In this document: piece after piece, positions 426 to 2,735 of the stretch
Numbering within the stretch: position 1 is the first letter of the stretch
Layout of the letters: the number at the start of each line of letters is the position of its first letter
Assembly (NCBI GenBank): GCA_028282325.1
Contig: JANQID010000005.1
Location: 1-33,403 of the forward strand
DNA length: 33,403 nt
Reading direction: 5' to 3'
From: Chloroflexaceae bacterium
Lineage (GTDB): Bacteria; Chloroflexota; Chloroflexia; Chloroflexales; Chloroflexaceae
Notes under the pieces: generated by a model
What the model was told of the DNA's origin: nothing
The model's database searches: none
The model's input: only the letters and a program-made list of their open reading frames with translations
Position numbers and translations under genes: made by a program

Positions 426-1448
426 TCAGCGTCGCATTTGCGCCTGAACTGCCCTGACCAATCCCATATCGCTCAAATCTTCGAGGCGATAGTAGCTTCC
501 CTTAAGACGCTCCGCGAGTTTACGCGATAAACCCCGCTCGAAGTTGGAATGCTCAGTATCGATAACAATCGCTTGAATCTGTTGCTCGGCGATAAAGTCA
601 GCGATTTTGTAAGCCTCTGACTGCGGCGGCATATTGCCAATCGCGACGTTTGCCTGACCATCCGTCAAAATCACCAGCAACGGCAAGATCTCAGCATCGT
701 GGAGGCGCGCGCGTTCAAGCAATTCGTAACCGGTAAGCAACCCTCGTGCAAGCGGCGTTTTCCCGCCGGTCGGCATAGCTTGCAAACACCGCCGCGCCAG
801 ATCGACACTATTCGTGAGTGGCAATAAAATACTGGCATAATCACGCTGAAAACTCACCAGGCCAACCTGATCGCGCCGTTGATAAGCGTCACGCAATAAC
901 GATAGCACCGCAGCTTTTGTTGCGCGCATTCGCTCTTCGGTAGCCATACTCCAGCTTGCATCGACGACAAAGCAAACTGCGTTGCGGGTGCGTCGCACCC
1001 GTACTTTCTGACGCAGATCATCGCGTCGAAGCAGAACACGTGGCTGCCGTCGCGGCGCGTGCATATGCTGCTCGCCCGATGCGCTCCGCCTATCATCTTT
1101 GTCTCGTTGAACGCGGCGTATTTGTTGATACGGCGCTGCCTCGCGCAGAGTCGCGTCAAATGCCAGATCCGTCACCCGACGTACCCGCTGGCTGGTGATG
1201 TAGCGTCCCCGTTTACGCAGCGTGCGCGTCCGACTGCGCCGCCCTGGCGCGCGGCGTTGCTGACGATCCGCCTGACTTTCAAGGCGGCGAGTGCGGAATA
1301 CCTCGTTTGATTGATATATCTTGCCGCTATTTTGCTCGTTTTCCGCGGCTTCGCGTCCGCCAGCTAATTCTGTCGCAGCGCCGGCGGCGGCGCGGCTTAT
1401 CTCAGGCGAACTCTGATCATCGGTGGTTGCGTCACTTACCGGATCTTT
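426..1448 (-). CDS. chlD: von Willebrand A (C-terminal) half of ChlD, expressed by -1 frameshift
   Basis: This is the C-terminal half of the medium AAA+ subunit of a magnesium/cobalt chelatase. The frame is open from the A-run at 1446-1454 to the stop at 426. It runs through an acidic linker, then a basic segment containing RGRYITSQRVRR, then DLAFDATLREAAPYQ (both typical of the ChlD middle), then a vWA domain with the MIDAS motif DASWSM and later TGGKTPLARGL and LTDGQAN. The only usable start in this frame (GTG at 1173-1175) has no Shine-Dalgarno sequence and would discard the conserved RGRY segment. I therefore read it as continuous with the upstream ATPase ORF through a -1 shift, giving a 703-residue protein, a normal ChlD length. 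In the family, the vWA domain couples the ATPase ring to the large chelatase subunit (ChlH or CobN). An alternative is a simple inactivating indel, but both halves look intact. Confidence 0.8.
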   Translation of the reverse strand, partial: KDPVSDATTDDQSSPEISRAAAGAATELAGGREAAENEQNSGKIYQSNEVFRTRRLESQADRQQRRAPGRRSRTRTLRKRGRYITSQRVRRVTDLAFDATLREAAPYQQIRRVQRDKDDRRSASGEQHMHAPRRQPRVLLRRDDLRQKVRVRRTRNAVCFVVDASWSMATEERMRATKAAVLSLLRDAYQRRDQVGLVSFQRDYASILLPLTNSVDLARRCLQAMPTGGKTPLARGLLTGYELLERARLHDAEILPLLVILTDGQANVAIGNMPPQSEAYKIADFIAEQQIQAIVIDTEHSNFERGLSRKLAERLKGSYYRLEDLSDMGLVRAVQAQMRR

Positions 1449-2536
1449 TTTTTTACTTCGTCGCCTTGTAGTGTATCGACCGATTTGTCGATCATCTGGA
1501 ATGATTGTTCCAACACTGACGCAATCCGCATTTCGTCAATGCTCACATCGGCAAAAGGTTGTCGCCGCATACGATGCGGCAAAGCCAACTCAGCCGCCAG
1601 ACGCAGATCTTCAACCGTCAGCGCTGTATGTCCAGACCATGCCGCGTGGGTGCGCGCGGTTTCCAGAATTGTCAGATCGGCGCGATGGCCATCAACTCCT
1701 AGATCGAGAGACAGGGTGGCCACAGCCGCCATATCCTGCCGCACTACCTTCACATGCGGCAATAACTCGCCGGCAGTAACAATTCGCGCCGCCAATTCTT
1801 GCTCGGCGCCTTGCCATTGCGCGACGAAGCCCTCGGGATCGGTCTCAAAGTCCATCCGGCGTTCAATAACCGCCACACGGCTAGCGACATCAGTCAGACC
1901 CGTAATCTCAACTGCCAGGCCGAAGCGGTCAAGCAACTGAGGACGCAATTCCCCCTCTTCAGGATTCATCGTGCCGACCAGGATAAACCGCGCCGGATGC
2001 GACACGCTGATCCCCTCACGCTCAACCGTATTGACTCCCATTGCCGCGGCGTCGAGCAACAGATCAACCAGGTGATCGTCAAGCAAATTTACTTCATCGA
2101 CATAGAGCAACCCACGATTCACCTGAGCCAACAACCCTGGCTCAAAGCGACGTTGACCCTCAGTAATTGCATGTTCGAGATCCAGCGAGCCAACGACACG
2201 ATCTTCAGACGCCGATACTGGCAACTCCACCAGGCGAATTGGACGATCCACCGTTGGAAGCACATCATCGGTATCGCGATGTGAGCGACAGATTGAACAC
2301 AACCCTGCCGGCTGATCGGGGCTACAACTATAGAGGCAATTGGCTACGACGGTGATCGAAGGCAGCAGCCGAGCCAGTGCGCGTACCGCCGTAGACTTGG
2401 CTGTTCCCTTCTCGCCGCGAATAAGCACACCGCCGATACGAGGGTTTATCGCATTAAGAATAAGCGCTCGCTTGAGACGCTCTTGACCGACCAGGGCACT
2501 AAACGGGTAGAGAGGGCGAAGAGGCGACATGACCAC
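1436..2536 (-). CDS. chlD: Mg/Co-chelatase AAA+ ATPase: N-terminal half of ChlD, or ChlI-like small subunit if unshifted
   Basis: This is an AAA+ ATPase of the ChlI/ChlD/CobS type (366 residues in the zero frame). ATP hydrolysis by its ring drives metal insertion by the large subunit. Visible are Walker A GEKGTAKST (41-49), Walker B LLYVDEVNLL, the family strings PVSASEDRVVGSLDLE and HPARFILVGTMNPEEGELRPQLLDRFGL (split here as two runs around LVG), and a cysteine insert with Cys67, 71, 80 and 83 (CxxxC-x8-CxxC). From memory, that insert is commoner in cobalt-chelatase-associated homologues than in photosynthetic BchI. The GTG at 2534-2536 is preferred over the ATG at 2528-2530 because GGAGG lies 11 nt before the GTG. 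The zero frame ends two codons after an A AAA AAG heptamer, so unshifted ribosomes would release an ATPase-only protein resembling the small subunit. Whether it serves bacteriochlorophyll or cobalamin synthesis cannot be decided here. Confidence 0.9.
   Translation of the reverse strand: MVMSPLRPLYPFSALVGQERLKRALILNAINPRIGGVLIRGEKGTAKSTAVRALARLLPSITVVANCLYSCSPDQPAGLCSICRSHRDTDDVLPTVDRPIRLVELPVSASEDRVVGSLDLEHAITEGQRRFEPGLLAQVNRGLLYVDEVNLLDDHLVDLLLDAAAMGVNTVEREGISVSHPARFILVGTMNPEEGELRPQLLDRFGLAVEITGLTDVASRVAVIERRMDFETDPEGFVAQWQGAEQELAARIVTAGELLPHVKVVRQDMAAVATLSLDLGVDGHRADLTILETARTHAAWSGHTALTVEDLRLAAELALPHRMRRQPFADVSIDEMRIASVLEQSFQMIDKSVDTLQGDEVKKKIR
1445..1467 (-). other. Probable programmed -1 frameshift signal in chlD
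   Basis: On the minus strand a run of nine A (1454-1446) is followed by G (1445). This creates the dnaX-type heptamer A AAA AAG in the zero-frame phase. Zero-frame codons are GTA AAA AAA AAG ATC CGG TAA, with the stop at 1438-1436. A -1 slip on AAA-AAG continues as GAT CCG GTA AGT into the vWA frame. An SD-like AAGG (1467-1464) sits 12 nt upstream of the heptamer, a spacing similar to the stimulator of E. coli dnaX. I see no strong stem-loop directly downstream. Transcriptional slippage on A9 is an alternative that would give the same products. Confidence 0.75.
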
Positions 2537-2539
2537 AGC

Positions 2540-2571
2540 AAAAAAATCCTCCGACCCCCTCTGGGTCAGAG
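2540..2571 (-). terminator. Terminator-like hairpin (attenuator) in the chlD leader
   Basis: On the minus strand, CTCTGACCC (2571-2563) and GGGTCGGAG (2557-2549) form a nine-pair stem (one G-U) with a 5-nt loop. One A/G pair of bases later comes a run of seven T (2546-2540). This is a classic intrinsic terminator shape ending 4 nt before the chlD start. No minus-strand gene lies upstream that it could serve, so it is best read as a leader attenuator. The stem contains most of the GGAGG that I take as the chlD ribosome binding site, so folding would also block translation. No known riboswitch consensus is recognised in the leader. Confidence 0.6.
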
Positions 2572-2706
2572 GTGCGAACGAAAAAGCCTGGAGCCGGCGT
2601 CAAGGCGTATATAAGAAGAGAACAAACCGGCAAAAGACACATAACTATATGTAAAAAACAAGCCGTCCCTATGTACGACTTTGTGAAGACGCATTCAAGC
2701 GCCGTC

Positions 2707-2735
2707 ATTGTCGCACAAAGACGCGCAAAAGTCAA
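2707..2735 (-). promoter_or_regulatory. Candidate sigma-70-type promoter for chlD
   Basis: On the minus strand TTGACT (2735-2730) and GACAAT (2712-2707) are separated by exactly 17 bp. Transcription would start near 2700 and give a leader of about 165 nt ending in the attenuator-like hairpin. The -10 box is imperfect, so confidence is moderate. Confidence 0.45.

Follow-up and report, generated by a model that had tools for sequence, protein, structure and literature searches.

A conserved leader with a likely transcription attenuator precedes chlD in the Chloroflexales

The chlD locus and its leader

The window analyzed here is a stretch of 33,403 nucleotides from a Chloroflexaceae bacterium, contig C116 of a 140-contig, 4.6-Mb assembly. 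It carries chlD on the minus strand (Table 1). The upstream neighbor is the divergent mreB (2857, plus strand), so no upstream gene requires a terminator in the chlD leader, as the initial annotation had stated. The longest mreB frame opens at TTG 2857, but alignments with most relatives begin only near residue 16, and a GTG near 2893 is probably the true start.

The initial annotation had placed a promoter upstream of chlD, and we recovered both of its boxes on the minus strand, together with an extended TGn element (TG at 2715-2714). The −10 box predicts a transcription start at ~2700 and hence a chlD leader of ~164 nt; a consensus scan detected no further chlD promoter downstream of 2707. 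A stem of nine pairs running into seven T had also been described: the stem and the T-tract are both there, but we counted ten pairs. The hairpin reads CCTCTGACCC, loop AGAGG, GGGTCGGAGG from 2572 to 2548 and is followed by an A (2547), the T7 run, GCT and the GTG of chlD, leaving 3 nt between the U-tract and the start codon. The GGAGG lies wholly inside the 3′ arm, as claimed. Another element proposed further upstream, GCCT/AGGC followed by five T, exists at 2606-2581 and is weak; its conservation was not seen in relatives.

Table 1. Features of the chlD locus in the window
Feature	Coordinates	Strand	Description and basis
Promoter	2707..2735	−	−35 TTGACT (2735-2730), 17-bp spacer, extended TGn, −10 GACAAT (2712-2707)
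Leader body	2573..2700	−	predicted start (~2700) to hairpin; no fold common to genera
Terminator hairpin	2548..2572	−	10 pairs, 5-nt loop; covariation and conservation
GGAGG ribosome site	2548..2552	−	in hairpin 3′ arm, 11 nt upstream of GTG; sequence
U-tract of terminator	2540..2546	−	T7; sequence
chlD, zero frame	1436..2536	−	ChlI-like AAA half, 366 aa, GTG 2536; TIGR02442, 498 bits
A9 slip site of chlD	1446..1454	−	sequence
chlD, VWA half, −1 frame	426..1175	−	reading frame and profile search

A chlD homologue was found in 60 of 61 genomes. The full-length protein of one relative (L020) passed the TIGR02442 cut-off (799.8 versus 779.45); the slip site divides the window gene, and its halves were therefore scored separately (498 and 228). 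The gene most likely encodes the small/medium ATPase of an enzyme of the cobaltochelatase type, and the metal is probably cobalt for vitamin B12. Both Herpetosiphon genomes that we checked contained chlD and a single CobN-family protein; the phototrophs checked contained four CobN/BchH-family matches. We tentatively take genomes G029, G042 and G053 to be C. aurantiacus, Roseiflexus RS-1 and H. aurantiacus, respectively, and, from its position, the chlD locus of G029 is presumably Caur_0117. A study of C. aurantiacus (PMC9316378) reports lag phase as the main period of BchD-2 (Caur_0117) expression, in contrast to BchD-1, and on this report the expression of what is probably the same gene is regulated. 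The single CobN of Herpetosiphon and the lag-phase expression of BchD-2 fit a role outside bacteriochlorophyll synthesis. In one genome of a Herpetosiphon-type family that is 100% complete (G044), chlD was present and a CobN/BchH-family protein was not found, so ChlD may work with a different partner or in a different role in that genome.

The zero frame of chlD stops two codons after an A9G run, whose A9 occupies 1454-1446; the −1 frame runs on into the VWA half. Programmed frameshifting in chlD is already known (PMC9227772). The A9 run is also kept in most Chloroflexaceae with a long zero-frame protein; at the nine such loci whose frames we read (L005, L007, L008, L012, L014, L016, L017, L020 and L021), a TGA or TAG is the second codon after A9 in the −1 frame. 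In the window, as at the Roseiflexus- and Herpetosiphon-type loci, a short ChlI-like protein comes from the zero frame and the long protein from the −1 frame. From these reading frames, slippage at the site thus appears to yield the long product in some lineages and the short product in others. We did not find this swap of phase described in the literature that we examined.

Conservation of the promoter and hairpin, and linkage to chlD

A consensus scan for terminators returned 9 sites versus 7.9 expected in 8 kb, that is, chance level. We consider the chlD hairpin more than a chance occurrence because of its conservation, its covariation and the retention of the promoter in relatives, the scan by itself being insufficient. 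The upstream regions of chlD were collected from 59 genomes of the family and order. An extended −10 promoter stood at the matching place in 57 of the 59 loci, 56 of them with TGn (shuffled sequences, mean 0.27, maximum 2), and a terminator-like hairpin with a U-tract fell within the last 70 nt in 42 (shuffled sequences, mean 3.0, maximum 8). As in an attenuator, a G+C-rich hairpin runs directly into a U-tract, and the element sits between the predicted promoter, which is kept at those 57 loci, and the chlD start codon. None of 32 outgroup loci outside the Chloroflexales had a terminator-like hairpin before chlD, and many of the chlD leaders inspected there were much shorter.

Conservation of the stem in related chlD leaders had been named beforehand as the test of the attenuator reading. 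In an alignment of 32 leaders, the hairpin columns were paired in 98.4% of cells, and five of the ten pairs had changed on both sides; when the partner was shifted by one column as a control, pairing fell to 52-56%. The stem is therefore conserved with compensatory changes, which, together with the absence of an Rfam match (see below), supports the proposal of an undescribed attenuator leader of chlD at the level of sequence. The arrangement is not uniform across the order, since Roseiflexus-type loci retain the hairpin and lack the U-tract. In Herpetosiphon-type leaders, the hairpin is followed by U5, lies ~40 nt upstream of the start and contains no Shine-Dalgarno sequence.

We then searched 41 family and 158 class genomes with a covariance model, R1, of the last 80 nt of the leader. 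At E ≤ 0.01, it matched in 36 of the 41 family genomes, with the best match at chlD and essentially no second copy; it also matched before chlD in four genomes from another family of the order. Most of the matched sequences were in the training set of the model; four genomes outside it (G061-G064) gave E values of 8.8e-13 to 3.9e-15. The off-target matches comprised a T-box leader before a TrpB-like gene (RF00230, 105 bits), a weaker match before the same type of gene in another genome, two leaders before trpE-like genes with the T-box motif GGGTGGCACCGCGG (identified by eye; their scores fall short of the Rfam threshold) and, between genes, a hairpin with a U-tract. These matches are terminators themselves, so the model detects intrinsic terminators. 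Within the family, the element is confined to chlD. It travels with chlD and not with mreB, since several loci have the element without mreB nearby.

The leader body and alternative explanations

The chlD leaders of the window and of its relatives matched no Rfam family, whether at gathering or at relaxed thresholds, which bears out the initial annotation's failure to assign it to a known riboswitch. The leader does not reach the gathering score of the Cobalamin family (RF00174); eight cobalamin riboswitches elsewhere in the genome are above the cut-off. In genome G000, a second ChlD-like gene has three cobalamin riboswitches above the cut-off, and a weaker fourth match, less than 15 kb away (C60:65430-79697). 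The body did not fold better than shuffled sequences (mean z +0.21), and the last 60 nt did (z −1.64). Against column-shuffled alignments, the body was at or near background in narrow groups, and one pooled set gave a signal, though a weak one (z −2.1). Its sequence is not common to different genera: only weak k-mers recurred, such as GTCGGTT in 5 of 30, and these are confounded by relatedness. A small hairpin before the terminator, CGGC-NNN-GCYG, was paired in 76% of cells, a weak signal.

Within genera, the body was often better conserved than the third codon positions of chlD. Identity was 84% versus 62% in Chloroflexus, 100% versus 89% in group g3, and 99% versus 82% in Herpetosiphon (six genomes: L045, L046, L047, L049, L050 and L060); the Herpetosiphon value is the strongest sign of constraint on the body. 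Groups g4 and g23 had no clear excess over third positions. The body is not free to drift in several genera, so it seems to matter there. Comparison of duplex energies with shuffles, which covered all but the last few loci, did not find a shared antiterminator, and genus g4 alone was positive. In this genus (L004, L006, L008 and L009), the leader carries a 5′ element, GGCCCGGGGC, no more than ~20 nt from the predicted start, with complementarity to the loop and 3′ arm of the terminator. Its pairing would compete with the terminator, making it a possible genus-specific antiterminator.

B12 riboswitches control chelatase genes, and the chlD leader resembles that arrangement in being a leader RNA before a chelatase ATPase gene; it differs in having no match to the Cobalamin family. 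A classical metabolite or metal riboswitch, in which an aptamer for cobalamin, Co, Mg or a tetrapyrrole in the body controls the terminator, would agree with the constraint on the body in Chloroflexus and Herpetosiphon and with the use of cobalamin riboswitches elsewhere in the genome. However, ligand-binding cores are usually common to genera and this body is not, nor does it match Rfam or fold beyond shuffles. A conserved folded aptamer, by which a riboswitch would be recognized, was not found in the leader, and a genus-specific or fast-evolving one is compatible with the data. In the absence of a common fold, a shared antiterminator or a codon signal in the body, a classical aptamer riboswitch is unsupported, and we regard it as improbable. 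An unstructured body would suit a leader-peptide attenuator, in which a ribosome that has reached the stop codon of an upstream ORF sits over the 5′ arm and blocks termination. Such attenuators are known from pyrBI, tna and amino-acid operons, and the chlD terminator likewise precedes the gene, with possible upstream ORFs ending at it. In many Chloroflexaceae, a conserved CGG-CRC-TGC-YGC-TAG, which reads R-[RH]-C-[CR]-stop, ends 2 nt short of the 5′ arm. The window contains an ORF of 42 codons (ATG 2694-2692) with its TGA inside the 5′ arm. Unlike the known systems, the chlD leader has no consistent start codon and no codon-level conservation: an upstream ORF occurs in the window and some genera, but L004, L008, L009 and L018 lack a start codon in that frame, and substitutions had no codon periodicity in four of five groups, the fifth consisting of two sequences. 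The attractive peptide R[RH]C[CR]* thus failed both the start-codon and the codon-substitution checks, and we consider leader-peptide control unlikely.

The ribosome site bears on whether the hairpin acts on translation alone, with an incidental U-tract. The initial annotation's hidden ribosome site is strong in this genome, but its overlap with the hairpin is not general: GGAGG occurs here and in some others, GGAAG takes its place in most Chloroflexaceae, and the overlap is missing in 27 of the 59 loci, Herpetosiphon types included. The GGAGG in the 3′ arm and the Roseiflexus-type hairpins without a U-tract would agree with translation-only control. However, the U-tract is conserved more widely than the overlap, and the Herpetosiphon hairpin, distant from the start, has the former without the latter, leaving this explanation rather improbable. 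By these comparisons the terminator is the more widely shared feature, and the overlap would be a second layer here. The well-defined promoter and terminator, and selection on the body within genera, would also be expected of an independent small RNA lying before chlD by chance. Such an RNA is very unlikely, given that the body is not common to genera, that the terminator mostly keeps a very short, almost constant spacing to the chlD start, that no Rfam sRNA or 6S family matched and that the scan located no chlD promoter downstream of 2707.

T-box leaders (RF00230) before TrpB- and TrpE-like genes of the same organisms have a very similar terminator and U-tract (GG-TTTTTTGTTGTTGTGA), and the preceding GGCAC[CU]G segment bears a weak likeness to them. 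The chlD leader differs from T-boxes in having no T-box model match and no invariant UGGN. Neither Stem I nor a UGGN antiterminator was found, the corresponding segment reading CGGC, AGGC or GAGC in relatives. A T-box relic was ruled out on the missing UGGN and model match. Separately, GGCACC...ACCTCTGGCCC before the terminator in L011 and L029 resembles, in sequence and spacing, the antiterminator/terminator segment of a T-box leader (L069).

A proposed model for attenuation of chlD

We consider it quite likely, from the comparative evidence, that the chlD leader is a gene-specific transcription attenuator of a cobaltochelatase-type chlD, with the ribosome-site overlap as a second layer in this genome. 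RNA polymerase would start at the near-invariant extended −10 promoter, make a leader of ~150 nt and run into an intrinsic terminator immediately upstream of the chlD start codon, where much of the transcription would end unless formation of the hairpin were prevented. In this genome, a read-through RNA whose hairpin refolded would be poorly translated, as its Shine-Dalgarno sequence lies in the 3′ arm. We infer from the arrangement that termination occurs and is regulated, and that the hairpin and the ribosome compete. Riboswitch expression platforms that act on both transcription and translation have been described (Barrick and Breaker, 2007, PMC2258182); compared with these, the chlD leader has no known aptamer and no conserved antiterminator, and it is tied to one gene. 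A more speculative and, in our estimation, doubtful idea is that the leader is a fast-evolving orphan RNA whose signal would be cobalt, a corrinoid or a tetrapyrrole intermediate. It would sense this signal through a novel mechanism and, with the frameshift that would set the ratio of the two subunits, time chelatase synthesis.

Overall, the comparisons point to a real, conserved and undescribed chlD leader in the Chloroflexales, for which attenuation is the likely class of mechanism. It is a conserved cis-regulatory leader without an Rfam entry, found before one gene in phototrophs (Chloroflexus and Roseiflexus) and in the non-phototroph Herpetosiphon. In this group, the expression times of chelatase paralogues reportedly differ (PMC9316378), and the leader offers a case for how chelatase supply may be set where the routes to B12, haem and bacteriochlorophyll part.
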